NCBI GenBank assembly: GCA_023140385.1
Contig: JAGLLT010000008.1
Span: forward strand, 1-50,134
Direction: 5' to 3'
Source of the DNA: Candidatus Omnitrophota bacterium
Lineage (GTDB): Bacteria; Omnitrophota; Gorgyraeia; JAGLLT01
DNA length: 50,134 nucleotides
A program made the position numbers and the translations under genes. The notes under the pieces are model-generated. The model was given only the letters and a program-made list of their open reading frames with translations, ran no database searches and was not told the origin of the DNA. Positions 13,847-43,002 of this stretch are shown one piece after another. Within the stretch, counting starts at the first letter, position 1. The number at the start of each line of letters is the position of its first letter.

Positions 13847-13857
13847 TAGCATTTAAG

Positions 13858-14038: not shown

Positions 14039-14040
14039 TT

Positions 14041-14192: not shown

Positions 14193-14435
14193 ATGTATAT
14201 TGTATATATCCTTGTAAGTAGAAAAGATTATAGCCGTTATTATATAGGTATTACGCAAGATTTAAATAGGCGGTTAAGGGAGCATAATAGCGAGCGCGCT
14301 GCTTACGCTAAAAGATATGCTCCATGGGAAATAGAAACTTATATAAGCTTTAAGAATAAACGCCTTGCCGAAGAGTTTGAAAAGTATTTAAAAGCAGGCT
14401 CCGGACATGCTTTTTTAAAAAGAAGGCTTATATAG
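14193..14435 (+). CDS. GIY-YIG domain protein (UPF0213-type)
   Basis: An 80-aa single-domain GIY-YIG protein: YIVYILVSR...YYIGITQDLNRRLREHNS holds the GIY and YIG strands and the conserved arginine; KNKRLAEEFEKYLKAGSGHAF forms the C-terminal helices. The GIY-YIG fold is a nuclease core (as in UvrC and homing enzymes); small UPF0213 proteins have no settled function. It follows tRNA-Ser(CGA) and its hairpin repeat, the same position as two other GIY-YIG genes in this window. No strong ribosome binding site is seen. Confidence 0.85.
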   Translation: MYIVYILVSRKDYSRYYIGITQDLNRRLREHNSERAAYAKRYAPWEIETYISFKNKRLAEEFEKYLKAGSGHAFLKRRLI

Positions 14436-26117: not shown

Positions 26118-26287
26118 CGTACCACGTAGGGTACGGTGCGTGTCTAGTACCCGATGTGGTACTAGGCGCGGCACCGCATAGGATACGTTTAATACCAAAA
26201 TTAGTCTGGTACAGGGCTGTGCCCCGTACCAAGAACAAGTCTGGTACAGGGCTGCGCCCCGTACCCGAAAGTACTTGAGTGGTACGG
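26118..26287. repeat. GTACC palindromic repeat cluster after tRNA-Ser(GCT)
   Basis: Starts with CGTACC/GGTACG (26118-26135), then further GGTAC/GTACC arms and the 3' palindrome CCGTACC (26259-26265)/GGTACGG (26281-26287). The same plan follows tRNA-Arg(ACG). GGTACAGGGCTG(T/C)GCCCCGTACC occurs twice in a row. Confidence 0.65.
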
Positions 26288-26297
26288 GGAGTTGATT

Positions 26298-27249: not shown

Positions 27250-27389
27250 CCGTACCATTCGCAAAATTTTTAAATTTTGCTCAGGTACGGTGCGCGGCAC
27301 AGGGTTAGTTTAGTGTTGAGTATGTCTAATACAGAGATTAGTCTGGTACAGAGGCGTGTCCCGTACCCGAAAGCATTTGAGTGGTACGG
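27250..27389. repeat. GTACC palindromic repeat cluster after tRNA-Arg(ACG)
   Basis: CCGTACC (27250-27256) and GGTACGG (27284-27290) enclose an inner hairpin GCAAAATTT/AAATTTTGC-like. A second palindrome, CCGTACC (27361-27367)/GGTACGG (27383-27389), ends just before the GIY-YIG gene, in the same position as the one before the 26298 gene. Confidence 0.65.
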
Positions 27390-27401
27390 GGAGGATTAAA
27401 A

Positions 27402-27662
27402 ATGTATTTTGTTTATGTACTTATAAGTAAAAAGGATAAGGCTTTTTATATTGGTTTTACGGAAAATGTTGAAAAGAGATTGAGTGAACACAATAGAGGC
27501 GAGGCGGTAAGCACCAAGTCAAGAAGGCCGCTTGTATTGATGTATTATGAGGCGCACTTATCGAAGATAGACGCATTGAGAAGAGAAAGGTATTTTAAAT
27601 CTAGTAAGGGAAGAACTACGTTAAAGCAAATGCTCTGCGAGAGTTTGAGAAGCGGTTTATAA
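27402..27662 (+). CDS. GIY-YIG domain protein (UPF0213-type)
   Basis: An 86-aa GIY-YIG protein: MYFVYVLISKKDKAFYIGFTENVEKRLSEHN has both strands and the conserved Arg, then RRPLVLMYYEAHLSKIDALRRERYFKSSKGR. ATG 27402 is chosen since GGGGAGGA lies 7-14 bp before it and the domain starts there; the open frame begins 21 bp earlier inside the repeat. It is the second of three such genes that follow a tRNA. Its stop is 11 bp before the TadA start, so the two may be cotranscribed. Confidence 0.85.
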   Translation: MYFVYVLISKKDKAFYIGFTENVEKRLSEHNRGEAVSTKSRRPLVLMYYEAHLSKIDALRRERYFKSSKGRTTLKQMLCESLRSGL

Positions 27663-27671
27663 TTGATAAAG

Positions 27672-28133
27672 ATGAATGATGAATATTATATGCGGGAGGC
27701 GCTGAAGCTTGCCGTTGAAGCTTTTAAGGCGGATGAAGTGCCGATGGGGGCGGTGATAGTACATAAAGATAGAATTATTGCCAAAGCCCACAATCAAATA
27801 AAGACCCTAAAAGACCCCACGGCTCACGCTGAGATGATTGCCATTACTCAGGCGGCCAGTTATCTTAAAAACGAACGCCTCATTGATACTGTGATGTATG
27901 TAACCATTGAACCTTGCGCGATGTGTATGGGCGCCTTGATACTGGCCAGAGTTAACAGGCTTGTTTACGGAGCGGATGACAGTAAAGCCGGCGCCTGCGG
28001 TTCGGTGATGGATTTATCAGATAATAAAAAATTAAATCACAGCATAGAGGTTAAAAACGGCATTCTTGAAGATAGCTGCCGTGATATTATACAAGAGTTT
28101 TTTAAATTAAAAAGAAAGAAGATCCTTCGCTGA
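27672..28133 (+). CDS. tadA: tRNA-specific adenosine deaminase
   Basis: A 153-aa cytidine-deaminase-fold enzyme that converts A34 to inosine in tRNA-Arg(ACG), letting it read CGU, CGC and CGA. The zinc and proton-shuttle residues are intact: AHAEMIAI (His and Glu) and EPCAMCMGAL (Cys-x2-Cys). Length is normal. ATG 27672 (MNDEYYMREAL) is the likely start; a TTG lies three codons upstream. Its substrate tRNA is encoded 423 bp upstream with only a GIY-YIG gene between them. Confidence 0.93.
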   Translation: MNDEYYMREALKLAVEAFKADEVPMGAVIVHKDRIIAKAHNQIKTLKDPTAHAEMIAITQAASYLKNERLIDTVMYVTIEPCAMCMGALILARVNRLVYGADDSKAGACGSVMDLSDNKKLNHSIEVKNGILEDSCRDIIQEFFKLKRKKILR

Positions 28134-28160
28134 AGAAGCGGTGAAAAGCAATTATAACAT

Positions 28161-28263
28161 GGAGAGGTGCGAGAGCGGCTTAATCGGCGCGCTTGGCCAC
28201 CGCCTATGGCGGGGTCCCGCTCTCTTCATTGAAGATACTTCTTTCGGAGAAGCGGTGAAAAGC
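28161..28263 (+). repeat. tRNA-Ser 5'-half repeat unit A
   Basis: Begins GGAGAGGTGCGAGAGCGGCTTAA, the acceptor, D-arm and anticodon-stem 5' strand of tRNA-Ser, breaks off at CGCTTGG in the anticodon loop and continues with CCACCGCCTATGGCGG and a CTTCT/AGAAG hairpin. The unit repeats almost exactly at 28511. Not a functional tRNA: the anticodon 3' strand, variable arm and T-arm are absent. Confidence 0.8.
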
Positions 28264-28275
28264 GAAACAAGAACT

Positions 28276-28524
28276 ATGTTTTACGTTTATATCTTGAAAA
28301 ATAGTGAAAGCAAATATTATACTGGAATGACATCTAAGCCCCCTGAAGCCAGATTAAAAGAACATAATTCTAATGCAAATAAGTGGACAAAAAATAAAGG
28401 TCCTTGGGGTCTTATTTATGCAAAAGCTTTTGAAACAAAAAAAGAAGCTTGGTTAAGAGAGCGTCAGATTAAAAAATATAAAGGCGGAAGTGCCTTTAAA
28501 GAATTAATCCGGAGAGGTGCGTGA
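28276..28524 (+). CDS. GIY-YIG domain protein between two tRNA-Ser half-copies
   Basis: An 82-aa protein with MFYVYILKNSESKYYTGMTS (a Y-Y-T-G version of the YIG strand), ARLKEHNSNANKWTKNKGPWGLIYAK and AWLRERQIKKYKGGSAF. ATG 28276 is chosen because the domain starts there; the frame opens 135 bp upstream in the repeat and would add tRNA-derived residues. Its 3' end overlaps the second tRNA-Ser half by 14 bp. Placement between two near-identical tRNA-half repeats suggests the gene moved or was duplicated with them. Confidence 0.8.
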   Translation: MFYVYILKNSESKYYTGMTSKPPEARLKEHNSNANKWTKNKGPWGLIYAKAFETKKEAWLRERQIKKYKGGSAFKELIRRGA

Positions 28525-28624
28525 GCGGCTTAAACGGCACGCTTGGCCACCGCCTATGGCGGGATCCCGCTCTCTTCATTGAAGATACTTCTTTCGGAGA
28601 AGCGGTGAAAAGCAATTATAACAT
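28511..28624 (+). repeat. tRNA-Ser 5'-half repeat unit B
   Basis: Nearly identical to unit A over about 103 bp and leads straight into the intact tRNA-Ser(GGA) at 28625. The 11 bp AATTATAACAT before the intact tRNA also precede unit A at 28150-28160, showing that the duplication included the promoter-proximal flank. Confidence 0.8.
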
Positions 28625-28712
28625 GGAGAGGTGCGTGAGCGGCTTAAACGGCACGCTTGGAAAGCGTGTGTACTTAACGGTACCCTGGGTTCGAATCCCA
28701 GCCTCTCCGCCA
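28625..28712 (+). tRNA. tRNA-Ser(GGA), integration site of the island
   Basis: An 88-nt class II tRNA: acceptor GGAGAGG/CCTCTCC, anticodon loop TTGGAAA (GGA, serine TCC/TCT), variable arm, T-loop TTCGAAT, CCA. Its final 27 bp are repeated at 44892-44918, marking insertion of the island into the 3' end while leaving the gene intact. Confidence 0.96.
28686..28712 (+). other. attL core (27-bp direct repeat)
   Basis: The tRNA T-arm and acceptor 3' strand, from TGGGTTCGAATCCCAG to CCTCTCCGCCA, identical to 44892-44918. Confidence 0.8.
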
Positions 28713-28724
28713 GCCTAATCCCAT

Positions 28725-28789
28725 AAGCAGTTAATTCCCTTGACGTTATATATAAAAGTAGTAAAATCAAGGTGTTAACTGCTTTTTGT
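28725..28789 (+). terminator. Palindrome after tRNA-Ser(GGA) with an internal promoter
   Basis: AAGCAGTTAA (28725-28734) pairs with TTAACTGCTT (28775-28784), plus CCTTGA (28738-28743) with TCAAGG (28767-28772), followed by a T run: a terminator for the tRNA. The loop contains TTGACG-16-TAAAAT, a possible promoter. The same structure is present in the second left end (about 35399-35458). Confidence 0.6.
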
Positions 28790-28889
28790 ATTTTTATATA
28801 AATCTTGCATATTTTTATGTTTTTTGAGACTTGTGACACGAAAATGACACGTTATAGCAAATAATAGTTTAACCTAAGGGAGGTTATTA

Positions 28890-28931
28890 ATGGATGGTTA
28901 TGATGCTGCGTTTGTAGCCCCCTGCACATAG
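28890..28931 (+). pseudogene. Truncated first copy of the 428-aa gene
   Basis: ATG 28890 starts MDGYDAAFVAPCT and stops at codon 14 (TAG). The intact copy at 35564 reads MDGHDNAFIAPDTW. The downstream frame continues homologous up to residue 42, then passes into the HTH domain. Confidence 0.75.
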
Positions 28932-28994
28932 ACTTCCCTTATTAACAAGTTGACTACCGAAGTTAACGTAGTCACTAAAAATATTTCCAACATA

Positions 28995-29207
28995 ATGTCT
29001 ATGGTAGAAAAAAGCTGGTCTCAACAAAAACTCGCTCAGGAAGCAGGATTATCCTTTAATGCAATAACAAAAATTGAACAGGGACTAGCAAAATATCCAA
29101 CACTAAAAACTCTTAGCAAATTGTCTAATGTTTTTCAAATTGGCATAGATGAATTAGTTGGAAGAGGAAAAACAAATTTTATTAGGATTAAAAATGGAAA
29201 ATTATGA
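28995..29207 (+). CDS. XRE-family HTH regulator preceding the giant NTPase
   Basis: A small helix-turn-helix protein: SWSQQKLAQEAGLSFNAITKIEQGLAKYPTLKTLSKLSNVFQIGIDELVG is a complete XRE DNA-binding domain. ATG 28995 gives 70 aa; ATG 29001 or the TTG at 28950 are alternatives. Residues before the HTH (MSMVEKS) come from the N-terminus of the 428-aa gene copy, so the regulator is fused in frame at the repeat breakpoint and may have lost its own start. Its stop overlaps the giant gene's ATG by 14 bp, indicating translational coupling; it is probably a repressor of the module. Confidence 0.8.
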   Translation: MSMVEKSWSQQKLAQEAGLSFNAITKIEQGLAKYPTLKTLSKLSNVFQIGIDELVGRGKTNFIRIKNGKL

Positions 29208-32200
29208 TAATACTCACAAAATCTTAACAAAAACTGGACCTATTAGAAAAGGCTTCGATTATCAAGATGCTTGTGCTGCCTTCTTGTTTGTAAAATGGCT
29301 TAGGTACCCAGCAGAAAAAAAATGGGTTAAATTGGAAGCAAAAGAGTGTGGCTTTTTGGATGACATTGTTTTTGTAAGTAAGGATAATACACTATTTCTA
29401 AAACAAATTAAGTATTCATGTCATCCAGAAACCCCGCAAGATGAATGGAGCTTGGAGTCAATATTAAAAGAACCACAAGGGAAAAAAACCAAAAGACAGT
29501 CTTTATTTAAAAGATGGTTTCTGTCTTGGCAGGAATTTCGAGAAAAAAAGTCATTTCGCGAAGTAAAGGCAGAATTACTAACCAATCGAAAAGCCTCTGA
29601 AAACATAATTAATGTTGCTGAAATGTGTGATAACTCTACGGCAATAATTATTGATATCAAAAAGCTAAAAAAATTGTCTCCCGAGCATTATCAAGAGATG
29701 CTTAGGCAAATAAAGCCCTACAAAAAGAAGCATTTAAGGACTTTTTTTAATAATTTTAAATTTAATTTTGACCACTATTCTTTAGAAAGAATGTGGACTC
29801 AAACAGAAGTGATTTTTAAAGAACTGGGTGGGAGTGGTGGTGCATGGTTAGCTTTTAAGGAAAAAATTAGAGAGTGGGCTATAGAACAAGATAAGCCATC
29901 TAAAGAAGGCTTAATAAAAATAGAGGACTTAAGAAGTGCGGCAGGGTGGGAAAAATTAAAAGCGTTAAATCAAGAATTTTCAATGCCAGACGACTTTGAG
30001 TTGTTTGATGAAAGAATTGAGAAAAAGTTAATAAGTGATTTTAAAAAACGAAAAGGTGGCCTGCATATTTTGTATGGACTTCCTGGAGTTGGCAAGAGTA
30101 CTTTTTTGTCACACTTATATAAAAAGTTAGAAGGAGCCAATATCCCGGTATTAAAGCACCACTATTTTTTAACAACGAGCGATCCTGATTTCTATGAACG
30201 ACTTGAACATGAAAGGGCAGAAGAAGGATTAAAGAACGAAATTTACCAAAAATTTAGAGATTTATTGGGAGAACATGCTAACCAAAATCAAAAACAGGCA
30301 AAATTACAAGATTGGTTATCTGCAATCAATAAACAGTTTAATGCCAGAAAACAAGCCTTAGTAATAATCGTTGATGGGCTTGACCATGTTAAAAATTATA
30401 GTGACATAAAAAACTTGAATAAATTTTTGATGCAGATACTTCCGTGCTTAGAAGAAATGTGGATTGTTTTAGGAACACGGTTGATGTCTGAAGAAAATCT
30501 TCCCCCAATAATATATGAACATTGTTCATTTAAACAGTGGATAGAAGTTAAACCATTTTCAAAAAGTGTCGTTGCAAATCTAATACGAAAAAACATTAAA
30601 AGTAAAAAGTTAAGGATTCAAAAGGACAGATATATTATTAGAAAATTTACAAACAAATTTTATCAGCTTACAGAAGGACATCCATTGCATATTAGGTATT
30701 CACTTGAAATCTTATTTGAATTTGGTAAAACAAAAAATATTACAGATTATGATTTAGCTAATTTACCACCCTATCAGGGAAATATCGAGAAATACTACAA
30801 CATATTATGGTCTAAATTAAGACAAGAAGGTAAAAGCGTTGCGATCTTAATAGCAGGTGCTAATTTTTTCTTAAAAGGCCATCAAGTCTTTGAAGTTCTT
30901 GTTTCCAATGCAGTACGTATGGATGCGCTTTTAGAAGGTTTTGGGCAAATAAAACATTTATTGAAAGAGATTCGTCGAGGGGTCACTTTTTTCCACACGA
31001 GTTTTTCGGAATACATTAGACAAACGCAAGAGTTTCAAATTTCGAACCCTACAATAAAAAAAGAGCTAAGGAATTGGCTTACAAGCAAAGCTCCGGAAGA
31101 GCTGTGTTGGCAACAATGGCTTAGATTAGAATATGAGTTAGGAAATTATGAGTTAGTTCTTTCGAATTTAACAAAAGATTGGGTTATAGAAGCGATAGAA
31201 AAACAATGCTCTCTAAAGCTAATTAATGAACATTTGAGTATGGGCATAGATGCCGCCCTTCAACAGGGAAATTTTTCAAAAGGAGCATTCCTGGGGTTAT
31301 TGTTGAATGTGGTTGATAATATAACAGTAGAAAATGAAGATGATTATGAAAAGTTGATAATGTTTTTATTGAAAGAAAAAGATGGAAAAGATATAGATAG
31401 GTATATATTCGAAGAAAACATTCCAAGCTATTCCTCTTCCAAATTAAATGCTTTAGCTACACTGGCAGAAGAAAAAGGAAGAATGGATATTTTGGAGGTA
31501 ATATTTGAGGAGCTTAACACTGGATATGATAGAGATGAAGAATACTCAATGCGAAATCGAGGGCAACGAGAAATAACATTAAGTAAAGTTGTGGCATATT
31601 TAAATATTGAGCCTAAAAGGGTTTTAAATTGGATAAGGAAATTTGATAACAGTGTAAAAAAGGAAGAATTGCTATCATGCTATGTGTTTGGATTGCTTAA
31701 AGCTCGCAAGTTTACAATAATTGAAAATTTGATCAGCAAAAAAATATCACAAGAAGAAAAAAATATTGTATTGAATCAGTATACGAAATATTGTTTCGAA
31801 AATAAAATTGACATTAGTGGCTTTATTTTAAAAAATGGTAAACACATTGTGGGCTTACAAGAAATGTTATTGCTTGCCGTGCTTAATAAGCTCCCTGGAG
31901 ATGTGAGTACTTTAATCCCAGAGCATCAAGTATTCCCACTTGCATTAGAAGATTACAAAAGTAAAGAAGTTTCAGCTCTTGCTATAACCTTTTTTAATTG
32001 TTACACGAGTGCTTTAATACTTAGTTGTGGAGCAAAGAAAACTGTTGTTGAGCATTGGATTAAAAGCGGGGAATTTTTTTCTTGGAGCCGTGAAGCAGCT
32101 AAGAGCCTTGTTGAATTAGGGATGGAACATGGAGAAAAAATAAAAAATGGAATAAATATTAAATATAGCGATCTAATTGACAAATTGAAAGATTTACATG

Positions 32201-35200
32201 TTCTAGATTGGAGAGAAGATAGAGATATCTACGGAATATATAAATCATTTAGAACAGCGGCAGAAAAAGTTTTTAACTTATTAAAAAATATTAAGCGATG
32301 GCAAAACGATAATTTCAAAATTGCTGAAAATGAATTTATTCAATATTGCGATTCAGATTTTTTTGGCAAATATGTAATGTTGAAAAACTTAGCTTATGAA
32401 CGAGAACCGTTTTTAGAGGAAAAAGCATACGTGAAATTTATCACCGAAGAAGAGAAAAGCCTTAAAAATGATGTTATATATTTTAGGGATAGAGTGGAGC
32501 AATATGTAGATTTAGCACATCTTGCGGGCTTACATAAGGACAGCGATAGAATAAAAGTTTTTACTAAAAAGGCAATTTTAAATATGCTAGCTTATGGGGC
32601 TAAAGATGCTTATCATTCTGATGTCTTAGAGTGCGTAGAAGCGTGTCATAAGGCAGGGTCGAAAAAAGGAGATTCATGGCTAAAAAGAATAGCTCCATTG
32701 ATAGAACAAGCAGAAAATTATACCGAAGGTGCTAAGTATTTACAAATAGATCTTGCAGAAAAACTTGCTTTAATAAACCCAGAAAGCTTAAAAAGCTATT
32801 ATATATATCATGCTAATAATGAAAATTTATTTTTGGCACAGGATATTTTTCCCTTTATTGTTTCTATAACTGTTAAAAATAACGAAATTGATAAAGCTGT
32901 ACTAAAAACAGCAATAGATAGAGAGTCAATTGAAAAATTACAGGACATGGCTAAAAAAAATCCTACAGTAGAAACTATTTTAAATGAGAACAGGGAATAT
33001 TTTAATAGTTTAGTAACTTTTCCTCCCAAAGAAGAGCGGGGCACGAACTGCAACCATTCGTCTTTAGCCAATGATTTAACTGATTATAAGTCGATTGCGC
33101 CAAGTAATCTCAAAAACCATTTATTAAATATAAAAGATTTATATCAGAGAAATAGGTATCTGAGCGGATGGAGTCAGTGTTGGCTTTCTGAGGAGGGAGA
33201 AGAAGAGGCGTATAAAATAACGATAGATTGGATCGAAGAAACGGGAATAGAAAAGGCCGATCACGAAGTGCTAGATTTGTTATATCCGTTAGCTTTTAAA
33301 TTTGAAAACAAAGAAAAGAGCTTCTTTTTATTATGTAATGCCCACACTAAAGGATATGGGTGGTCAGGAAGATTTTTTTCAAGAAAAGAAGCAGTTGTAA
33401 AAAGATGGGATTTTTTAAAGCAACATTTCCCTGAAAAATTTAAGGATTTTTGTAAAGAAACATTAACTAAGGTTGACCGAGAGGGAAATTCAAAATTTGT
33501 TGCATATTTGCCTGTTCCAAGAGGTGTAGAATTTATGACTTTTTTTAATGTTCTGGACATCGCAGAACAAATGACGGAAGTTGCAGTAACCTTTGCAGAA
33601 GATTTAATGGCAGATTTAAGCATTCCAAAGCTTGTGTGGCAAGAGTGGAGGGGTAAAAATTCTTTAGATGTTCTTCTTGAGCGATTTAAGTGGCCGAGTC
33701 CACTTGTGCGTGAAAGAGCAGCTACAGCATTATGTAATCTTATCTCTAATGAAGAGACATCGCAATTAGTTGTTACACAACTATTAAAATGGGGAAGTTT
33801 GCAAGGGCTTGAAAGCATAACAGTAATGACATTGCTCCCCTTTGTGAAATCAGCAAGACTTAATAAATGCAACGGATTGGTGGCCTATAAGACAATAAAA
33901 GATAACATTAATAATTCTTCGATAAATTCAGAATTTCTCTTAAGAGAAGTTGCATTAGCAATAGAAGGAGAAGTTCTAAAAGAAGAAGAGTTTGTTGAAG
34001 AAAGAGAACCGGAAAATCTAGAATCTTGTCCAAAGGATTATAAACCTAATAAATTTTTCCTTCGTACTCAAAAAGCTTTTTTGCCACCCATTCATGTGAT
34101 AAGGGCAGAAAAAATCGAAAAAAATACAGGGTTTAAATTTATACAACAGTGGGCTTGGGATGCAGATCGAATTAGAAAAAAGATTGGTATTGAAGAATCT
34201 TTAAGGGATGTAATGGATTTCATGGGAGGAAGATATCAACCTAGTATGCCAGCATTTTCTAGTAAAATGTCGGAAATTTATAGGTCAGCTTTTTTGAGAA
34301 CGCTGTTTCTTTGTTATAAGGAGAATAAAATACCAAAAGGTCTTTTATTTAAATGGACGTTCTCATTGTGTCCAATAGATATCAATTTTTGGGAAATTAA
34401 TGAACGCAATTCTCCTGGTTGGTGGCCAGGCTTAAGCCAAAAATCAAATGGGAAAATAGATATTTCTCAAGGGAAAATTCTTACAGACTTAGAAAGCTTA
34501 TTGGATAAACTAGATTTAGATGAAAATAAGATAGTTGGTCTGCATGGCCCCGCTAAACCTTTTGACGGATGGCATAGTGAAAATCTTGGCACTAAAATTC
34601 TCGTGGTACCTTTTGCTTATGAAATAAAAGGAGCGCAGTTACCAAGCGCAAAAGAAATAGGAGAAGTTATTGCTTACTCTCCTGTTATCGAAGTTCCTTC
34701 AATAACAAAAAAGCCCTTTTGTTTTTTTGAGCAAGAAAATATGCCTTTAGACGAAAGTAACGTTGGAGGGATTAAAGTTAAAGATGCTGTAATATTTCCT
34801 TTAGTTGCGCGGATACACACGCATCCAATTAACTATTGGAAAGCATGTATTGGGCGCCATGCATCTTTTGGTATTGCCGAAAACTTATTAAATGAGGGGC
34901 TTAAGCAGGGATACGAAGCAAATAATTGGTTCTATATGTTTAACGAAGAAAAAGTAATCATAAGTTATGCTTGGAATATAGGAATAATAGAACGGCATAA
35001 TAGTGATTTTGATGCTCCATCTGGACAAATAATAGAAATAAAGAGAACATGGTTAAAAAAAATTTTAGATGAACAAAAGCTAAGGGTAGGATATTTTATT
35101 AAAATGAAATTTATTCATAGACAATATTTACATGAAAAAGCTAGTATTTATGAGGAAGATAAATTACTTAATTTTTCTCCTATAATTGTTCAAAGGGGTA

Positions 35201-35208
35201 AGTGGTGA
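29194..35208 (+). CDS. Giant nuclease-STAND NTPase (Avs-like)
   Basis: A 2004-aa protein. (1) About residues 12-200: a Cap4/DUF4297-like nuclease domain with RKGFDYQDA (18-26), the acidic FLDDIVF (Asp56/57) and LFLKQIKYS (Gln71, Lys73), a PD-(D/E)XK D...QxK arrangement. (2) About 270-560: a STAND/NACHT-type NTPase with Walker A GLPGVGKST (295-303) and Walker B VIIVDGLDHV (390-399). (3) The remaining ~1400 residues: helical repeats and a distinct C-terminal domain (ARIHTHPINYWKACIGRHASFG). Known Avs proteins combine an N-terminal effector nuclease, a STAND core and a long C-terminal sensor that binds phage proteins; this fits that plan, but the sensor is not recognised. ATG 29194 is preferred to the TTG at 29158. 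Confidence 0.75.
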   Translation: MENYDNTHKILTKTGPIRKGFDYQDACAAFLFVKWLRYPAEKKWVKLEAKECGFLDDIVFVSKDNTLFLKQIKYSCHPETPQDEWSLESILKEPQGKKTKRQSLFKRWFLSWQEFREKKSFREVKAELLTNRKASENIINVAEMCDNSTAIIIDIKKLKKLSPEHYQEMLRQIKPYKKKHLRTFFNNFKFNFDHYSLERMWTQTEVIFKELGGSGGAWLAFKEKIREWAIEQDKPSKEGLIKIEDLRSAAGWEKLKALNQEFSMPDDFELFDERIEKKLISDFKKRKGGLHILYGLPGVGKSTFLSHLYKKLEGANIPVLKHHYFLTTSDPDFYERLEHERAEEGLKNEIYQKFRDLLGEHANQNQKQAKLQDWLSAINKQFNARKQALVIIVDGLDHVKNYSDIKNLNKFLMQILPCLEEMWIVLGTRLMSEENLPPIIYEHCSFKQWIEVKPFSKSVVANLIRKNIKSKKLRIQKDRYIIRKFTNKFYQLTEGHPLHIRYSLEILFEFGKTKNITDYDLANLPPYQGNIEKYYNILWSKLRQEGKSVAILIAGANFFLKGHQVFEVLVSNAVRMDALLEGFGQIKHLLKEIRRGVTFFHTSFSEYIRQTQEFQISNPTIKKELRNWLTSKAPEELCWQQWLRLEYELGNYELVLSNLTKDWVIEAIEKQCSLKLINEHLSMGIDAALQQGNFSKGAFLGLLLNVVDNITVENEDDYEKLIMFLLKEKDGKDIDRYIFEENIPSYSSSKLNALATLAEEKGRMDILEVIFEELNTGYDRDEEYSMRNRGQREITLSKVVAYLNIEPKRVLNWIRKFDNSVKKEELLSCYVFGLLKARKFTIIENLISKKISQEEKNIVLNQYTKYCFENKIDISGFILKNGKHIVGLQEMLLLAVLNKLPGDVSTLIPEHQVFPLALEDYKSKEVSALAITFFNCYTSALILSCGAKKTVVEHWIKSGEFFSWSREAAKSLVELGMEHGEKIKNGINIKYSDLIDKLKDLHVLDWREDRDIYGIYKSFRTAAEKVFNLLKNIKRWQNDNFKIAENEFIQYCDSDFFGKYVMLKNLAYEREPFLEEKAYVKFITEEEKSLKNDVIYFRDRVEQYVDLAHLAGLHKDSDRIKVFTKKAILNMLAYGAKDAYHSDVLECVEACHKAGSKKGDSWLKRIAPLIEQAENYTEGAKYLQIDLAEKLALINPESLKSYYIYHANNENLFLAQDIFPFIVSITVKNNEIDKAVLKTAIDRESIEKLQDMAKKNPTVETILNENREYFNSLVTFPPKEERGTNCNHSSLANDLTDYKSIAPSNLKNHLLNIKDLYQRNRYLSGWSQCWLSEEGEEEAYKITIDWIEETGIEKADHEVLDLLYPLAFKFENKEKSFFLLCNAHTKGYGWSGRFFSRKEAVVKRWDFLKQHFPEKFKDFCKETLTKVDREGNSKFVAYLPVPRGVEFMTFFNVLDIAEQMTEVAVTFAEDLMADLSIPKLVWQEWRGKNSLDVLLERFKWPSPLVRERAATALCNLISNEETSQLVVTQLLKWGSLQGLESITVMTLLPFVKSARLNKCNGLVAYKTIKDNINNSSINSEFLLREVALAIEGEVLKEEEFVEEREPENLESCPKDYKPNKFFLRTQKAFLPPIHVIRAEKIEKNTGFKFIQQWAWDADRIRKKIGIEESLRDVMDFMGGRYQPSMPAFSSKMSEIYRSAFLRTLFLCYKENKIPKGLLFKWTFSLCPIDINFWEINERNSPGWWPGLSQKSNGKIDISQGKILTDLESLLDKLDLDENKIVGLHGPAKPFDGWHSENLGTKILVVPFAYEIKGAQLPSAKEIGEVIAYSPVIEVPSITKKPFCFFEQENMPLDESNVGGIKVKDAVIFPLVARIHTHPINYWKACIGRHASFGIAENLLNEGLKQGYEANNWFYMFNEEKVIISYAWNIGIIERHNSDFDAPSGQIIEIKRTWLKKILDEQKLRVGYFIKMKFIHRQYLHEKASIYEEDKLLNFSPIIVQRGKW

Positions 35209-35382
35209 ATAATGCAGAAGGCGGGTGATCTCGGGGAGACGCCTGTCGAGTGCATGTGCGACGCTAAGAGTCCACCAAGAGGACAACGAAGAAGTAACCC
35301 ATGTCAGACCTAATCTTGATTTATTGAGTGTGCTTCCCTGAGGTCGCTCCAAAATGAGTTCGAATTTTATCGAATAAGCACT
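35209..35382 (+). ncRNA. GC-rich segment with serial hairpins after the giant gene
   Basis: Immediately after the stop, in an otherwise AT-rich island, comes a stretch able to form three stems in a row: GGCG...CGCC enclosing TCTC/GAGA (about 35219-35242), GTCG/CGAC (35245-35262) and GTCC/GGAC (35270-35284). A short reading frame (35214-35310, starting MQKAGDLGETPVECMCDAKS) also exists. It could be an RNA, a 3' regulatory element or a relic of another mobile element. The segment ends in a T-arm-like TGAGTTCGAAT and GCCAG that abut the second left-end copy. Confidence 0.35.
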
Positions 35383-35387
35383 GCCAG
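35355..35387 (+). other. Degenerate att-like junction
   Basis: TGAGTTCGAAT...GCCAG resembles the tRNA-Ser core TGGGTTCGAAT...GCCAG and lies in the same position relative to the left-end repeat as attL does, consistent with a decayed internal attachment site from a tandem insertion. Confidence 0.4.
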
Positions 35388-35688
35388 TGTAATCCCATAA
35401 GCAGTTAATTCCCTTGACGTTATATATAAAAGTAGTAAAATCAAGGTGTTAACTGCTTTTTGTATTTTTATATAAATCTTGCATATTTTTATCTTTTTTA
35501 AAATTTATGTCACGAAATTGACACGCCATAACAAAAGATAATTTAATTTAAAGGAGGTCATTTATGGATGGCCATGATAATGCGTTTATAGCCCCCGACA
35601 CATGGATCCTCCCTATTGCTAAGTTGACAGATGAAGTTAACGTATTCACTAAAAATATTTCCAATGTGACGTCTATGGTAGAAAAAAG
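35383..35688 (+). repeat. Island left end, copy 2 (306 bp)
   Basis: The second copy of the 28709-29014 sequence. Here the reading frame is open and enters the full 428-aa gene, so this is probably the original left end of the island. Confidence 0.85.
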
Positions 35689-36850
35689 TTTGGATTTTAG
35701 ATGTAATAGTGCACCAGCTCGCGCGATATTTGATTTGAAGGATACTCTTTCTATAGCAAGTAACAATATTTCATCTATTATATCATGTGCTCATAATTTT
35801 GCAGAAATTGCAGAAACGCCGTCATCACTTTTGTTGGACAGTCAGAAAATAGCTTCTCTTTCGTCTGATTTAGTTGTTGACGCAACAAGCTCAATTTTAG
35901 CCACTACGGCATCAATGCTTAGCAGTGTTCGCAGTAATATTGAGAGTCTTCATATTACTGATTATAATGGAGTAGACGTCTTTAGCATGGAAAAACTGTC
36001 CGCATTATCTATTCCAGACCAACCAGTTGCTATAAATTCATTATCTCAAGATAGTCTTATTTCGTTGGGCAATAGTCTGCAGAATAATACCTTTACAGTT
36101 AAAAGTTTAATAAACACCTCCTTGGCGACATCACGGCTTAACGTAGAGATTTTTACCAACCCCGTGGAAAGTGTAGATACTTATCTTGCTGATATGAACG
36201 AAACAACTATACATTTTAACTCACTATCAGCTTCTGTATATAATGAAATGACTTGTTCTCCTTTGATTGATACAAATAGTTTACTCTTCCAGGCGCCTAC
36301 AATTGAACCATATGCTGCGATATCTGCTGTTGCTGTTCTTGGGGGCTTGGATGAAGATGCTTTAGATCGATTTTGTGTCAAAAGTACAGATAACTTCCTT
36401 GATGCATTAGGAGATGGACTTGAGACGCGTTTGCAAGCAGTGAATCCACAATTAGCCAGCGTATATCGAGAGGGTATGGTGGCGGTAAAATCAGGCCATG
36501 AAGGATGGATTCGTCACGCAGGGGTGTCTTTCAGAACTTTACTTGATCATCTTCTGCGTTATTTGGCGCCTGATAAAAAACTTAATTCATACTTTGAAAA
36601 TCCAAAAGATAATATGATAGACGGAGAATTTAGCCGCAATTCGAAACTTCGATATATATTTCGTGAAATCGCTTGTGGGTCATATTCGAAAATGGCAGAA
36701 CAAGATATAAAACTTGCCGAGGCAACATTTTTCCCATCAAACGAAATAGTGCATAAGCTATCATCACCACTTTCAGAACAACAAATGCGCGTATTTTGCC
36801 GTCGTGTTCAAGGATGCGTATCCGTTATTTTGGAAGTAGCGGGGCATTAA
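35564..36850 (+). CDS. Unknown 428-aa protein, possible pPIWI-associated-nuclease-like C-terminus
   Basis: A 428-aa soluble protein with a strong ribosome binding site (AAAGGAGG, 6 bp before the ATG). The first ~250 residues are Ser/Asn/Thr-rich and helical (LSIASNNISSIISCAHNFAEIAE, ILATTASMLSSVRSNIESL), suggesting a long coiled or repeat-like sensor. The C-terminal ~160 residues are better ordered: FLDALGDGLETRLQAVNPQLASVYREGMVAVKSGHEGWIRHAGVSFRTLLDHLLRYLAPDKK. This pattern of an amphipathic helix, then a G-x-x-x-V-x-S-x-H-x-x-W-x-R-H signature, recalls the predicted pPIWI-associating nuclease families seen in defence loci; this is from memory and untested. It is followed 28 bp later by a membrane TPR protein. 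Confidence 0.6.
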   Translation: MDGHDNAFIAPDTWILPIAKLTDEVNVFTKNISNVTSMVEKSLDFRCNSAPARAIFDLKDTLSIASNNISSIISCAHNFAEIAETPSSLLLDSQKIASLSSDLVVDATSSILATTASMLSSVRSNIESLHITDYNGVDVFSMEKLSALSIPDQPVAINSLSQDSLISLGNSLQNNTFTVKSLINTSLATSRLNVEIFTNPVESVDTYLADMNETTIHFNSLSASVYNEMTCSPLIDTNSLLFQAPTIEPYAAISAVAVLGGLDEDALDRFCVKSTDNFLDALGDGLETRLQAVNPQLASVYREGMVAVKSGHEGWIRHAGVSFRTLLDHLLRYLAPDKKLNSYFENPKDNMIDGEFSRNSKLRYIFREIACGSYSKMAEQDIKLAEATFFPSNEIVHKLSSPLSEQQMRVFCRRVQGCVSVILEVAGH

Positions 36851-36878
36851 TCGTTAGGGAATAACAGGTATTGGATAA

Positions 36879-37808
36879 ATGATATTGCTATATGTTGCTA
36901 TTTCTATACCCTTTATAATTGCCCTCTTCTCTCTTCTTAAAGACTGGAACGATGAGAAGCGGAGAATTTATATATCATTACTCATATTAACAATATGTGC
37001 CTTTATGGTAAGTTGTCTATGCACCTATTTCTCTGGGAGGGAAAGTGAAGAATTAAAAAAAGAAAATTATTTGAAAGATCGAAGGCAAATAACCCTAACT
37101 CTCCTCTGTAGCAACAGACTCCCTCTAAAACGCCCACTATCAAAAATAGAAAAAAATCTAAGAGCTAATAATTACGATTCAGCAATAGCTTTTGCCGAAG
37201 CAATTTTATTATATGCGAACACATTAGCGGACGGTGAAAGGCAGCAGGTAGTTCGTGATATATATATTTATTTTATCTATAATGCAGAAGATCGCAGGGA
37301 AAAAATTAAGCTTCTTGAATTAATAAATATAGAATATCCTGAAGAATTTGCCGAAGTGCATCGTTTGCTAGGGCAGCTTTATGCTGAAGAGGGACGCTTT
37401 AAGGATGCGATGCTAATTTTGAATAAAGCATTATATATAGAAGATGACAATAGTATAACGTATCATTTACTTGGTCGCGTATCTTTTGCCGAAGGAGATT
37501 GGGAGAAAGCGCTAAAATATTACAAAAGAGGAATAGAAAAAAATGAGAAATATGTAAATTTAAATATTGAAATAGGAGATATTATTTGGTGTTACACAAA
37601 TGACGTGGAAAAAGCAAAAGGGTACTACGAGAAGGCCATTGAGAATAAAGACATAAAAGATTGGTATTATTCTGCATATGAAGAGGATTTAATTAAGAGA
37701 CAATCTGTGGTCAGTAACAAGGATCTTCAATACAATATAAAACCAGCAGATAAAATCACTTTCTTTTTAAAAGAAACACCCTTTGTTGTAGAAGAAAGTA
37801 AAAAGTAA
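36879..37808 (+). CDS. Membrane-anchored TPR protein
   Basis: A 309-aa protein: two hydrophobic segments (about residues 2-20 and 31-50) form a hairpin anchor, followed by cytoplasmic tetratricopeptide repeats. Clear TPRs are AEVHRLLGQLYAEEGRFKDAMLILNKALYIE, SITYHLLGRVSFAEGDWEKALKYYKRGIEKN and NLNIEIGDIIWCYTNDVEKAKGYYEKAIENK. It starts 28 bp after the 428-aa gene and is likely cotranscribed. A membrane scaffold next to a putative nuclease could form a membrane-linked effector or sensor pair; this is inference. Confidence 0.75.
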   Translation: MILLYVAISIPFIIALFSLLKDWNDEKRRIYISLLILTICAFMVSCLCTYFSGRESEELKKENYLKDRRQITLTLLCSNRLPLKRPLSKIEKNLRANNYDSAIAFAEAILLYANTLADGERQQVVRDIYIYFIYNAEDRREKIKLLELINIEYPEEFAEVHRLLGQLYAEEGRFKDAMLILNKALYIEDDNSITYHLLGRVSFAEGDWEKALKYYKRGIEKNEKYVNLNIEIGDIIWCYTNDVEKAKGYYEKAIENKDIKDWYYSAYEEDLIKRQSVVSNKDLQYNIKPADKITFFLKETPFVVEESKK

Positions 37809-37817
37809 AAATAATAC

Positions 37818-37846
37818 TTGACAAATAGGTTAAGTTGTGGTATATT
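37818..37846 (+). promoter_or_regulatory. Promoter with operator, XRE regulator gene
   Basis: TTGACA (37818-37823), 17 bp, TATATT (37841-37846). The repeat ACAAATAGGTTAAGT (37821-37835) overlaps the -35 element and the spacer. Because of this promoter the upstream part of the open frame (before 37877) cannot be translated from this transcript. Confidence 0.75.
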
Positions 37847-37876
37847 TATATCAACGAGAAAAAAGAGTTCTTTCAA

Positions 37877-38068
37877 ATGACTATTGATATCGGAAGTAAA
37901 TTAAAGGCGAAAAGAGTGCAGATGAATTTAACTCAGCTGGAACTTGCGACAAAGGTTGGAGTTAGTGAAAGTTACATCTGCCAGATTGAGAATGGGAAGA
38001 TGGTATCGATCAAAAAGCTTGAGCAACTAGCAAAGGCAGTAGGATGCAAAGCAAAAGATCTTCTCTAG
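37877..38068 (+). CDS. XRE-family HTH regulator
   Basis: A 63-aa protein that is nothing but an XRE DNA-binding domain: SKLKAKRVQMNLTQLELATKVGVSESYICQIENGKMVSIKKLEQLAKAVG. ATG 37877 is selected because the promoter ends at 37846 and RNA would start near 37853. Operators with the same 15-bp sequence occur in its own promoter and twice just downstream before the excisionase-integrase genes, so it is likely an autorepressor that controls excision and integration. Confidence 0.85.
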   Translation: MTIDIGSKLKAKRVQMNLTQLELATKVGVSESYICQIENGKMVSIKKLEQLAKAVGCKAKDLL

Positions 38069-38089
38069 GATATTTTTTTAATTTGAAAC

Positions 38090-38117
38090 TTGACAAATAA
38101 GTTAAGTAGCATATATT
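38090..38117 (+). promoter_or_regulatory. Promoter with second operator copy
   Basis: TTGACA (38090-38095), 16 bp, TATATT (38112-38117), overlapped by ACAAATAAGTTAAGT (38093-38107). Confidence 0.7.
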
Positions 38118-38134
38118 TTTTGCCCTATAACTTT

Positions 38135-38149
38135 ACAAATAGGTTAAGT
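38135..38149 (+). promoter_or_regulatory. Third operator copy
   Basis: ACAAATAGGTTAAGT, identical to the copy at 37821, lies just after the second promoter and immediately before the AGGAGG of the small gene at 38164, well placed to block transcription. Confidence 0.65.
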
Positions 38150-38163
38150 AAGGAGGTGAGAAG

Positions 38164-38301
38164 GTGATAGAGATTAAATTTAGCAGACATACGCTGTCGA
38201 CTTTTGAAAAGATGCATTATGCGTGGGTCATCAAGGTGCTTATGACATGTATGGTTCATTTAGGGAAAAGCATTAAGATAATTACAATAGTGTTTAAATA
38301 G
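38164..38301 (+). CDS. Small protein, 45 aa, before the excisionase gene
   Basis: GTG 38164 has AGGAGG 7 bp upstream. It encodes MIEIKFSRHTLSTFEKMHY followed by a hydrophobic stretch (AWVIKVLMTCMVHLG) and a short basic tail. The stop is followed by AGGAGG and the next GTG 10 bp on, so it is translated in the same operon as the excisionase and integrase. No family is recognised; the good ribosome binding site is the main support. Confidence 0.5.
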   Translation: MIEIKFSRHTLSTFEKMHYAWVIKVLMTCMVHLGKSIKIITIVFK

Positions 38302-38311
38302 GAGGTTAATT

Positions 38312-38515
38312 GTGGAAAGATTTGTAAGCATAAGTGAAGTATCAAAGTTTTTGGATGTGAAAGAATCAACCTTGTATGTTTGGAGATATAAAGGCATGAT
38401 TCCCTGCTACAAAGTAGGGGGTAGGGTGCTTTTTCGATTATCAGAATTAAACAAGTTCGCTGAATCATTTAAACAGCCGGTATTGGCAAAACCGGCAGTA
38501 AGAATAGCAGGGTAG
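38312..38515 (+). CDS. Excisionase-like HTH_17 protein
   Basis: A 67-aa MerR-like helix-turn-helix protein: FVSISEVSKFLDVKESTLYVWRYKGMIPCYKVGGRVLFRLSELNKFAES is a standard excisionase-family (HTH_17) domain that binds near att sites and sets the direction of recombination. It starts at GTG 38312 after AGGAGG and is 9 bp from the integrase ATG. Presumably controlled by the XRE repressor. Confidence 0.85.
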   Translation: MERFVSISEVSKFLDVKESTLYVWRYKGMIPCYKVGGRVLFRLSELNKFAESFKQPVLAKPAVRIAG

Positions 38516-38524
38516 TAATAAGAC

Positions 38525-39580
38525 ATGGGCGTAGTTTACAAAAGAAAAGATAGCCCTTGCTGGTGGCTGGCTTATTCAGCGGGAGGGCAAAGGATAAGAG
38601 AAAGCTCCGGTACTGCTTCGAAATTACTTGCCAGAGAAATCCTGATCCGAAAGGAATCCGAAGTTTTACTTTCCGGGGGCAGCAGAGTTTTCTTAAAAAA
38701 ATCTGTAGAGGTCTTTGTTTCTGATTATTTAGAATGGATAAAGGTTAACCGTCGTGAACATACTCTTCGGAGTTACACGACTATTCTAAAAACCTTCGTT
38801 AATTTTCTCAAGGACTATCCTAATATCAAAAACCTATCAGATATTACGTCCAAACTGCTTGAAAATTATAAACAGTATAGATTAGCTCAAGCTAAAACCT
38901 GTACACTAAAAAATCATGTAATTGTTTTAAAGGCCTTTTTTTGTAAAGCAGTAGAGTGGGATTGTTTATCTGAAAATCCGGCTAAAAATTTAAAATCGGT
39001 CGAAATAATTGATTCGAAACCAATTAAAGTATTAACGGAAGAAGAGTACACTGGATTTATGACTACCTGCAAAAGTGAATTTAAAGAATTTTATCCTATG
39101 TTTTATACTTTTATACACACCGGATTAAGAAAATCAGAGCTTCTTAGTCTTGAGTGGAAGGATGTAGATTTTGAAAGAGGTTTAATATATATACGCAATA
39201 AAGAAAATTTTCGGCCTAAAGGAATAAATAAAAAAACAGGTAAAGCCAAAGAAAGAATAATTCCCATACACGATAATCTCAAGCGGGTATTAACAAACTT
39301 ACCGAAAAACAACCCGGTTCTATTTGGGCCATATTCAAAACATATGCCAAGACGAGTTCTTATAAGAATAGCAAAAAGAGCAAACATCACCGGCCTTACC
39401 AGATTGCATGAGCTTAGACATTCATACGCCACATTTCTATTGAAAAAAGGCGTGGATATATATAAAATAAAAGAGTTATTGGGTCATTCTGATATAAGGG
39501 ATACTATGAAGTATGCACATTTACCCACAGTTCATATGAAAGAGGATGTGAAGGTATTGGAAAATTTAGATAATGCTTGA
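38525..39580 (+). CDS. Tyrosine recombinase (integrase)
   Basis: A 351-aa phage-type integrase. It has an N-terminal SAM-like DNA-binding region (LRSYTTILKTFVNFLKDYP) and a complete catalytic domain: Arg in TFIHTGLRKSELLSLEW, His-x-x-Arg in LHELRHSYATFLLKKG, His in ELLGHSDIRDTM, and Tyr in MKYAHL. It should integrate the island at the tRNA-Ser(GGA) 3' end. Unusually it lies in the middle of the island, some 10 kb from the left and 5 kb from the right att site, which suggests cargo was added at both sides. Confidence 0.93.
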   Translation: MGVVYKRKDSPCWWLAYSAGGQRIRESSGTASKLLAREILIRKESEVLLSGGSRVFLKKSVEVFVSDYLEWIKVNRREHTLRSYTTILKTFVNFLKDYPNIKNLSDITSKLLENYKQYRLAQAKTCTLKNHVIVLKAFFCKAVEWDCLSENPAKNLKSVEIIDSKPIKVLTEEEYTGFMTTCKSEFKEFYPMFYTFIHTGLRKSELLSLEWKDVDFERGLIYIRNKENFRPKGINKKTGKAKERIIPIHDNLKRVLTNLPKNNPVLFGPYSKHMPRRVLIRIAKRANITGLTRLHELRHSYATFLLKKGVDIYKIKELLGHSDIRDTMKYAHLPTVHMKEDVKVLENLDNA

Positions 39581-39653
39581 ATTTATTGCTATAGCCACTT
39601 ATAATAGAAAAGGCCACGCAGTTTGATGCCTTGGAAGGGGAGAGCTTTTAATC

Positions 39654-40499
39654 ATGATAAAAGGTAACAAGAATAAGCCATACTTCAAAAGTGATAACTT
39701 CGAACTCTATTTAGATGACTGTAGGGATTCTTTGAATAATTTGCCTGAAGAATCAGTGGATATGATATTTGCGGACCCCCCGTATAATTTATCCAATGGC
39801 GGTTTTACCTGCCATGCCGGCAAAAGAGTTCCTGTTAATAAAGGCAGTTGGGACGAAAGCAAGGGTTTAGATAAAGATTTAAAGTTTCACATAGCTTGGA
39901 TAAACGCATGTAGGCGCGTTTTAAAGCCTAATGGTACAATTTGGATTAGCGGAACTTATCACTCAATTTATCGCTGTGGATATGCGTTGGAAGTATCAGG
40001 ATATCATATATTAAATGATATAAGTTGGCTTAAGCCTAACGCGGCCCCCAATTTAAGCTGCCGCTTTTTTACCGCAAGTCATGAAACAATAATTTGGGCC
40101 AGAAAAAATAAAAAAGCTAAGCATGTGTTTAATTATAATCTTATGCGCAACGGTGAATGGCCGGGAGATATTATAAAGAAACCCAATAAGCAAATGCGTT
40201 CTGTATGGAGCATTAACACACCTAAACCATTTGAGAAAACATTTGGCAAGCATCCGACTCAAAAGCCGGAAGATTTGCTTAAAAGAATTGTTTTGTCGAG
40301 TACAAACAAAGAACAACTTGTGCTAGATCCCTTTACGGGTAGCTCTACAACAGGACTTGTTGCACATTTATATGGTAGAAAATTTATTGGTATAGATAAT
40401 GAAAGATCTTACCTTGATTTATCGATAAAAAGATTTAATTTACTTAATGCCAACGTAAAGAAAAAACGTGATAGAAAACCAAAGGCGGTACTTGTATGA
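39654..40499 (+). CDS. Type II DNA adenine methyltransferase (DpnA-like)
   Basis: A 281-aa beta-class methyltransferase. The catalytic motif DMIFADPPYNLSNGGFT precedes the AdoMet motif LDPFTGSSTTGLVAHLYGRKFIGID. The middle (VNKGSWDES, ILNDISWLKPNAAPNLSCRFFTASHETIIWARKN, KHPTQKPEDLL) resembles DpnA (M2.DpnII), an N6-adenine methylase of GATC that can act on single-stranded DNA. GATC specificity is inferred from this resemblance only. It overlaps the next gene by four bases (ATGA). Confidence 0.88.
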   Translation: MIKGNKNKPYFKSDNFELYLDDCRDSLNNLPEESVDMIFADPPYNLSNGGFTCHAGKRVPVNKGSWDESKGLDKDLKFHIAWINACRRVLKPNGTIWISGTYHSIYRCGYALEVSGYHILNDISWLKPNAAPNLSCRFFTASHETIIWARKNKKAKHVFNYNLMRNGEWPGDIIKKPNKQMRSVWSINTPKPFEKTFGKHPTQKPEDLLKRIVLSSTNKEQLVLDPFTGSSTTGLVAHLYGRKFIGIDNERSYLDLSIKRFNLLNANVKKKRDRKPKAVLV

Positions 40500-41017
40500 T
40501 AAAGGGCGGCAAAGGTGGAGGCAAAACAATAACGGGCTTAAGATTTGAGTCTAGAATATCTCTTGAAAAAGCAATTTCTTCTCTTTCCCATTATAAAGTT
40601 TCAGATGACACTATTTATTATAAAGATAAGAAGGTTGCAGAATTATACCAAAAACACAAATTATATAAAAACTTATTAGAGCCAAATGATATTGATTTTA
40701 AAGCTATCATTTCTAAAAAATTACTTCCTGATGAAGCGATCTTAATAATAAAAGATAAAACACTCTTTATTATAGAAATCAAATTTCAAGAAGTGGCCGG
40801 TTCTGTTGATGAGAAGCTGCAGACTTGTGATTTTAAGAATAAGCAATACAAAAAATTGCTAACCCCTTTAAACATATCTGTTAAATATGTTTATGTTCTT
40901 AATGACTGGTTCAAAAAGAAAGAGTATAAAGATGTATTAGATTATGTGAAATCGGTTGACTGCTACTATTTCTTTAATGAACTTCCTTTAGATTTCCTAG
41001 ACTTACCCATGCCTTAA
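40496..41017 (+). CDS. PD-(D/E)XK restriction endonuclease, partner of the methylase
   Basis: A 173-aa protein translated from ATG 40496, overlapping the methylase stop. The catalytic core is AILIIKDKTLFIIEIKFQEVAGSVDEKLQTCDFK (Glu-x-Lys around residues 99-101) with an upstream acidic residue near DEAIL. The phrase EIKFQEVAGSVDEKLQTC is characteristic of a type II restriction endonuclease group. Together with the methylase it forms a complete two-gene restriction-modification system. The recognition site is unknown; if the methylase is truly GATC-specific, this enzyme would cut GATC. Confidence 0.75.
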   Translation: MIKGGKGGGKTITGLRFESRISLEKAISSLSHYKVSDDTIYYKDKKVAELYQKHKLYKNLLEPNDIDFKAIISKKLLPDEAILIIKDKTLFIIEIKFQEVAGSVDEKLQTCDFKNKQYKKLLTPLNISVKYVYVLNDWFKKKEYKDVLDYVKSVDCYYFFNELPLDFLDLPMP

Positions 41018-41035
41018 CTATCTGTTTTAGTTTCA

Positions 41036-42898: not shown

Positions 42899-43002
42899 CT
42901 GGACAGTATTTGGTATGTAAATAGCGCTATATATTAGCACAGCATATATTTTAAGAAAACAAATAAAAGTAAAAAACTTCTTGACAGATGTCAGTAAAAT
43001 AA

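Follow-up and report, generated by a model that had tools for sequence, protein, structure and literature searches.

SegB, a free-standing GIY-YIG homing endonuclease of T-even phages, is enriched beside tRNAs and is reported to cut within tRNA-containing sequence (PMC13096335). In fungal mitochondria, mobile ORFs in Allomyces atp6 and in Glomus atp6, atp9, cox2 and nad3 bring a foreign gene end with them and displace the native one (PMC3630166). A survey of the insertion sequences with homing endonucleases in CPR rRNA genes placed the GIY-YIG proteins there outside spread by homing and did not mention tRNA (PMC11270868). Open-access full texts, which were the scope of our search, yielded no description of split-tRNA GIY-YIG elements.

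We analyzed a GIY-YIG gene at tRNA-Ser(GGA) of Candidatus Omnitrophota bacterium (GCA_023140385.1, genome of 1.5 Mb) in a 50,134-nt stretch of contig JAGLLT010000008.1, hereafter the window. As with SegB, a GIY-YIG nuclease gene adjoins tRNA genes; unlike the window gene, SegB belongs to phage genomes, and the available portion of its source does not describe split tRNA relics, inserted hairpins or a single rescue tRNA (PMC13096335). The locus shares with the fungal gene hybrids an endonuclease gene combined with a seemingly foreign part-replacement, the displaced native relic being recognizable by its similarity to close relatives (PMC3630166). The hybrids, however, concern the 3′ ends of mitochondrial protein genes, whereas the type in the window concerns tRNA genes of bacteria, in most cases their 5′ parts or complete tRNAs, and includes hairpins. 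By analogy, the element may operate like SegB combined with these "gene-hybrid" elements. In Caldiarchaeum, an integrase element with a tRNA-Thr fragment and pNOB8-type integration likewise has a tRNA 5′ fragment on one side and a reconstituted tRNA on the other, but it is archaeal, depends on a DNA recombinase rather than a GIY-YIG endonuclease and involves intron gain (PMC3293823). The CPR rRNA inserts occur in overlapping host groups and at stem-loop sites in structural RNA genes, but are intron-like and mostly LAGLIDADG (PMC11270868). Finally, the engineered home-and-rescue gene drive likewise directs a nuclease against an essential gene for which it brings a replacement (PMC7968924); that system is synthetic, CRISPR-based and in Drosophila, whereas resistance of the replacement tRNA in the window is only presumed.

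In a comparison bearing on sequence kinship to phage segB beyond the shared fold, the window protein had 7 distant matches, all in unannotated records, among 50,697 phage records and no match in IMG/VR viral contigs. A phage origin was rejected on these grounds.

The tRNA-Ser(GGA) locus

The locus contains a direct repeat of 103 nt (28161-28263 and 28511-28613, 96% identity), each unit of which comprises the first 36 nt of tRNA-Ser(GGA) followed by a hairpin-rich tail (Table 1). Over these 36 nt, relic 2 is 100% and relic 1 is 92% identical to the intact tRNA. An earlier note on this DNA had described two such units, with the intact tRNA-Ser(GGA) behind them preceded by the same 11-nt flank, and had described them correctly: AATTATAACAT occurs 5′ of relic 1 (28150-28160) as well as 5′ of the intact gene. 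Further, a diverged copy of the whole native flank lies at about 28581-28624. The 1.5-Mb genome contained no further copy of the 103-nt unit, and one intact copy of tRNA-Ser(GGA) was found in it.

In both relics, the tRNA breaks in the anticodon (..CTTGG|), in agreement with the earlier note. The break is not a simple cut, however: beyond the two hairpins of the unit, tRNA sequence resumes in the form of AAAAGC, the 3′ strand of the anticodon stem. When relic 1 and its tail were folded, CGCUU paired with AAAAGCG and enclosed two hairpins. Based on this pairing and on the resumption of the stem ahead of the ORF, the tail is an insert in the anticodon loop. The motif CCACCGCC..GGCGGG also follows the break in other tRNA-Ser relics, and an Rfam scan of the hairpin insert gave no family at the gathering score. 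The two units do lie before and after the GIY-YIG gene as proposed, with the refinement that the ORF and relic 2 overlap by 14 nt because the stop codon (28522-28524) falls within this relic.

The 82-aa protein belongs to the GIY-YIG superfamily (PF01541). Residues Y5, Y15, G17, R26, H30 and E62 (Y, Y-x-G, R, H, E) are invariant in its clade, and the closest solved structures are those of UPF0213 proteins. The ORF is free-standing, lying outside any intron or intein. The window contained no group I or II intron and the surroundings of the ORF no Rfam Intron_gpI structure; identification as a group I intron was rejected accordingly. Similarly, the GIY-YIG gene is the only gene between relic and tRNA, with no integrase there, and the element was not classed as a tyrosine-integrase island. 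At 20 sampled loci of homologues, the RNA genes detected were tRNAs only.

The genome encodes six small GIY-YIG ORFs. Three are in the window, where they adjoin tRNA-Ser(CGA), tRNA-Arg(ACG) and tRNA-Ser(GGA). A fourth follows the plan of the tRNA-Ser(GGA) locus at tRNA-Gln, of which a 5′ half breaks off in the anticodon loop and is succeeded by hairpins, the GIY-YIG gene and the intact tRNA. At L004 (about 1745-1785; G000 contig 44), a GIY-YIG ORF is followed by an apparent tRNA 3′ end (GTGGGTTCGATTCCCAAACCAGGGGA) with no intact tRNA near. In addition, positions 9100-9249 of the window hold three tandem copies matching a hairpin, TTCTG-TTCGC..GCAGGAAT, that elsewhere comes after tRNA 3′ ends and ahead of GIY-YIG genes.

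Table 1. Features at tRNA-Ser(GGA) and the two other GIY-YIG ORFs of the window.
Feature	Position	Strand	Basis or remark
Native 5′ flank of tRNA-Ser(GGA), ends in AATTATAACAT	28118..28160	+	89% identity to 3′ part of unit 2 plus flank; overlaps 3′ end of tadA
Relic 1, native-type tRNA-Ser(GGA) 5′ half (nt 1-36)	28161..28196	+	D-stem CGA..TCG as in G001, G002, G004
Hairpin insert 1 in anticodon loop, CCACCGCC..GCGGTG, closing with AAAAGC (anticodon stem, 3′ side)	28197..28263	+	Repeat comparison, fold
GIY-YIG ORF, 82 aa, stop codon within relic 2	28276..28524	+	PF01541, E=9.4e-17
Relic 2, 5′ half identical to intact tRNA, D-stem CGT..ACG	28511..28546	+	Sequence comparison
Hairpin insert 2, near-copy of insert 1, no GIY-YIG gene behind	28547..28613	+	Repeat comparison
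11-nt flank AATTATAACAT, possible -10 region, not scored as promoter	28614..28624	+	
Intact tRNA-Ser(GGA), sole copy found in genome	28625..28712	+	Compensated D-stem pair distinguishes its 5′ half from relic 1
Second GIY-YIG insertion (ORF 27402-27662), between tRNA-Arg(ACG) and tadA	27382..27671	+	Clean empty site in G002; absent in G001
Third GIY-YIG ORF, 62 bp 3′ of tRNA-Ser(CGA)	14193..14435	+	Absent in G001

Linkage to tRNA genes and anatomy of the relics

Linkage was evaluated in two sets of loci. Across 39 genomes belonging to the same class, a tRNA lay within 300 bp of 39 of the 97 small GIY-YIG ORFs, always on the same strand (39:0); the corresponding values were 2.1% for random 210-bp intervals and 0/20 for the UvrC GIY-YIG domain. 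No tRNA lay near 57 of the 95 class homologues in the tree. The second set was obtained by scanning GTDB species genomes with the proteins of the window's clade, blind to context. Of the 80 resulting loci, 76 had an intact tRNA within 300 bp, mostly 0-20 bp away and invariably co-oriented (76:0; both sets pooled, 115:0). The hosts, some of whose phylum labels rest on single MAGs, comprise many Patescibacteria lineages, Omnitrophota, Saganbacteria, Elusimicrobiota, Bacteroidota, Neomarinimicrobiota, Ignavibacteria, Calditrichota, Coatesbacteria and one Ectothiorhodospiraceae bin.

RNA genes near tRNA-free GIY-YIG ORFs, scanned at 40 loci, amounted to two group I introns and one tRNA. The introns (L053:578-781 and L072:1696-1905) lie within about 0.5 kb of such ORFs. 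At L054, about 235-330 nt past the start of the GIY-YIG ORF, a tRNA-Arg-like gene without an ARAGORN call is apparently interrupted by an insert just after the anticodon stem.

In a tree of 80 proteins, the window protein falls in a clade of 15 (support 99/94). Fourteen members were scored as 5′ of tRNA-Ser(GGA); in the 15th, L205, the contig ends inside a tRNA-Ser(GGA) that begins behind the ORF. Isotype labels also cluster on the tree, with 15 changes versus 34.8 in shuffles. The window protein, from an Omnitrophota class, is nested among those of Patescibacteria and Saganbacteria, in a tree with many poorly resolved forks. Its placement is consistent with inter-phylum transfer; errors in MAG binning are another possible source.

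We mapped 116 tRNA-linked loci over both sets, at least three of which were counted twice (L225=L086, L234=L068, L243=L051), being the same contigs according to their length or to matching relic coordinates. The ORF was 5′ of the tRNA in 77 and 3′ in 39. The earlier note had proposed to look in related genomes for GIY-YIG genes inside tRNA half repeats; partial copies of the same tRNA were found at 79 of the 116 loci (68%) versus 2 of 21 control tRNAs. Relics were located upstream at 58 loci, downstream at 39 and on both sides at 18. Upstream relics mostly correspond to the tRNA 5′ end and downstream relics mostly to the 3′ end, the pattern that would be expected if one outer tRNA were split by a cassette of ORF and whole tRNA. 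Indeed, the pieces of the outer tRNA are nt 8-37 and 38-78 at L254, and nt 1-14 and 15-86 at L207.

The relics usually contain a GC-rich hairpin that enlarges the D- or anticodon arm or stands in its place. Hairpins of the type CCGCC..GGCGG occurred within 150 nt upstream of 41 of the 80 ORFs; 19 were found in 400 kb of random DNA. First relic segments that end in the anticodon loop always do so after the second anticodon base (9/9, one locus counted twice). The breakpoint to which the earlier note drew attention thus occurs, but is one of several, with D-arm ends being more common. Breaks were enriched in the D-loop and anticodon loop taken together (p=6e-7). The anticodon loop as the preferred site was rejected, as it was not enriched alone (9/51, p=0.70).

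Among the 75 loci of type A, the ORF extends into the tRNA at 44 and ends within 30 nt of it at 64. With so little space left for a separate promoter, transcription of the tRNA probably passes through the nuclease gene, and most loci probably yield a joint transcript of ORF and tRNA; the window, with 100 nt between the ORF end and the intact tRNA, is an exception.

Filled, empty and alternative sites

The gene order tRNA-Ser(CGA)..tRNA-Ser(GCT)..tRNA-Arg(ACG)-tadA-tRNA-Ser(GGA) is common to the window and G001, a genome of the same genus. G001 lacks the GIY-YIG genes at tRNA-Arg and tRNA-Ser(CGA), and has after tRNA-Ser(GCT) a GIY-YIG fragment without counterpart in the window. At tRNA-Arg, the site in G002 is cleanly empty (..CCCGAAAGCATTTGAG|ATG of tadA), which sets the limits of the insert in the window (Table 1). 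Between tadA and tRNA-Ser(GGA), the window has the GIY-YIG element, G001 an unrelated 141-aa ORF with GGAGAG (nt 1-6 of the tRNA) ahead of it, G002 no recognizable element ORF and G004 a short gap only. Filled and empty sites thus occur between close relatives, as expected of a free-standing homing endonuclease.

Other repeats were observed at these tRNAs. Tandem repeats of ~60 bp (ATCTCTCACCCGTCTTTGACGAGTTCGAGATCC...) lie 5′ of tRNA-Ser(CGA) in the window (13855-14040) and 5′ of tRNA-Ser(GGA) in G002 (L136:2563-2640). GTAC-rich palindromes follow tRNA-Ser(GCT) (26120-26290) and tRNA-Arg (27250-27400) in the window, and the same palindromes lie 3′ of the G002 tRNA-Arg without a GIY-YIG gene.

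The D-stem is CGA..TCG in G001, G002, G004 and relic 1, and CGT..ACG, a compensated pair, in the working tRNA of the window and relic 2. Since relic 1 shares the D-stem of the relatives, it is the native 5′ half that has been displaced, and the working gene is a different allele, for which we infer a foreign origin from its divergence. A search for the donor recovered the exact variant from G000 loci alone; the tRNA of G020 has the same D-stem pair, with other differences. At L254, the acceptor stem reads GGAGGCG in the inner tRNA versus GGAGAGG in the outer pieces. As in gene-hybrid mobile ORFs, the window D-stem and the L254 acceptor stem each present an apparently foreign replacement beside the displaced native part. 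Relic and working tRNA likewise differ in the acceptor at L206, L210 and L213; at L204, L207 and L208 they are identical over the length of the relic.

Relatives of the G001 ORF (L134:4918-5343) were found in 16 of the 39 genomes (loci L138-L162), nearly all immediately upstream of a tRNA on the same strand (Ser, Val, Gly, Ala, Thr, Tyr, Pro or Glu). The two closest are also 5′ of tRNA-Ser(GGA). The family has the motif hxGhhLYxxEG and, frequently, an N-terminal HTH. Pfam and NCBIfam gave nothing convincing apart from N-terminal helix-turn-helix-type matches in the longer members; a confident structural model (pLDDT 91.7) had no significant PDB match. As these sources gave no confirmation, the ORF is called LAGLIDADG-like by motif only.

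A separate 16-kb island lies 3′ of tRNA-Ser(GGA) (28713-44918). It encodes a tyrosine integrase (38525-39580), a DNA methylase, a PD-(D/E)XK-like ORF, GmrSD and an Avs1b-like NTPase of 2016 aa. The att-like 27-nt 3′ end of the tRNA (28686-28712) is repeated exactly at 44892-44918, with GGAGAG ahead of the latter. The island seems to use the 3′ end of tRNA-Ser(GGA), and it has the features of a tyrosine-integrase island that the GIY-YIG element lacks. The 140-nt flank behind tRNA-Ser is present in two copies (28713-28853 and 35383-35525), the second being 98% identical to the tRNA-Ser flank of G001. This duplication suggests two island modules in tandem.

Interpretation of the locus

We consider it likely that the locus is a small chromosomal homing-type mobile element, with a free-standing GIY-YIG endonuclease, that breaks up tRNA genes and provides a whole tRNA or a tRNA end in substitution. 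Sequence comparison establishes its architecture, recurrence and orientation, the relics, the empty and alternative sites, the isotype specificity and the replacement of tRNA sequence. DNA cleavage and homing, to which these features point, would proceed as follows. The 82-aa endonuclease would recognize and cut the tRNA gene, and repair from an element-bearing donor would copy in the nuclease gene with flanking tRNA sequence. The target gene would thereby be split, its 5′ part (elsewhere also its 3′ part) persisting on the outside as a relic, with the GC-rich hairpin in the D- or anticodon loop. A complete tRNA, wholly or partly donor-derived, would lie directly beside the nuclease gene, so that the host keeps an essential tRNA and survives. 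The hairpin-bearing relics and the altered, working tRNA would resist renewed cutting. In the window, a second round of insertion or a tandem duplication may have added the flank, hairpin 2 and another tRNA 5′ half. Relic 2 would thereby have come to lie ahead of the present working tRNA, separated from it by this later event. Relic 2 was probably once the 5′ end of the working tRNA, because the ORF overlaps it just as ORFs overlap working tRNAs elsewhere.

This reading upholds the proposal of the earlier note that the nuclease targets or moves with tRNA genes, for which the linkage and uniform co-orientation in both sets, the excess of relics over controls, the empty and alternative sites and the tRNA-Ser(GGA) clade all argue. 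The companion proposal of functional tRNA-half RNAs is disfavored, as the relics look like the remains of a split target gene. Some features sit less well with homing. The protein is a single domain and has no counterpart to the DNA-binding domain that stands apart in I-TevI-type enzymes, so that its predicted target specificity lacks an explanation. Nor does the conserved hairpin insert have an obvious part to play in simple homing, and many of the class homologues lie away from any tRNA. In many loci, relic and working tRNA are identical, and cleavage resistance is therefore not evident from the sequence there.

We regard as improbable that the protein acts on tRNA itself, as a toxin-like or regulatory nuclease for which the tRNA and hairpin relics serve as antidote, decoy or substrate. 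Such a role would suit hairpins located in tRNA loops, after the second anticodon base wherever the first relic segment ends there, and the probable co-transcription of ORF and tRNA in most loci. Against it, GIY-YIG enzymes of known activity cut DNA, to our knowledge, and the empty sites, split outer tRNAs, displaced native relics and unrelated ORF at the same site would be left unexplained. A comparably low probability attaches to tRNA genes being general integration hot spots, at which hairpins and GIY-YIG genes gather passively or are left by tyrosine-integrase islands. The 16-kb island seems to illustrate such use of tRNA-Ser(GGA), but the GIY-YIG element contains no integrase, and integrase att repeats usually duplicate the 3′ end, whereas it is mostly the 5′ part that is repeated here. 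Moreover, strict co-orientation, ORF-tRNA overlap and clade-isotype specificity are unexpected from passive build-up.

Less probable still is that the gene is not selfish but a resident one, passed on vertically and serving tRNA genes in a housekeeping capacity such as tRNA-gene recombination or repair. UPF0213, the source of the closest structures, is a common small cellular GIY-YIG type and accords with this view; presence and absence at several tRNAs between two species of one genus, and the nesting of the window protein among Patescibacteria, do not. The earlier note also allowed for an assembly artefact, which a draft MAG with short repeats might invite. We give this practically no weight because the two relics differ and the architecture recurs in dozens of independent assemblies, inside large contigs that include one of 680 kb (L207).

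Of these readings, we retain the homing-type element. A further-reaching version, which we offer tentatively and to which we give somewhat less than even chances, is a natural home-and-rescue element: the nuclease would cut an essential single-copy tRNA gene, the altered tRNA would escape and loss of the element would be lethal. Under this version, tRNA-specific families would spread between phyla, and the second ORF family, with the LAGLIDADG-like motif, would play the same role at the same tRNAs.

If the homing-type reading is correct, very small selfish elements, each specific for a tRNA, target tRNA genes in many uncultured bacteria and were overlooked because each consists of one short ORF and unannotated tRNA fragments. 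This would provide a function for numerous small GIY-YIG ORFs in Patescibacteria, Omnitrophota and other groups, and a natural parallel to home-and-rescue drives. It would also show horizontal replacement of tRNA sequence in cells, in systems of a few hundred base pairs that would be directly testable.
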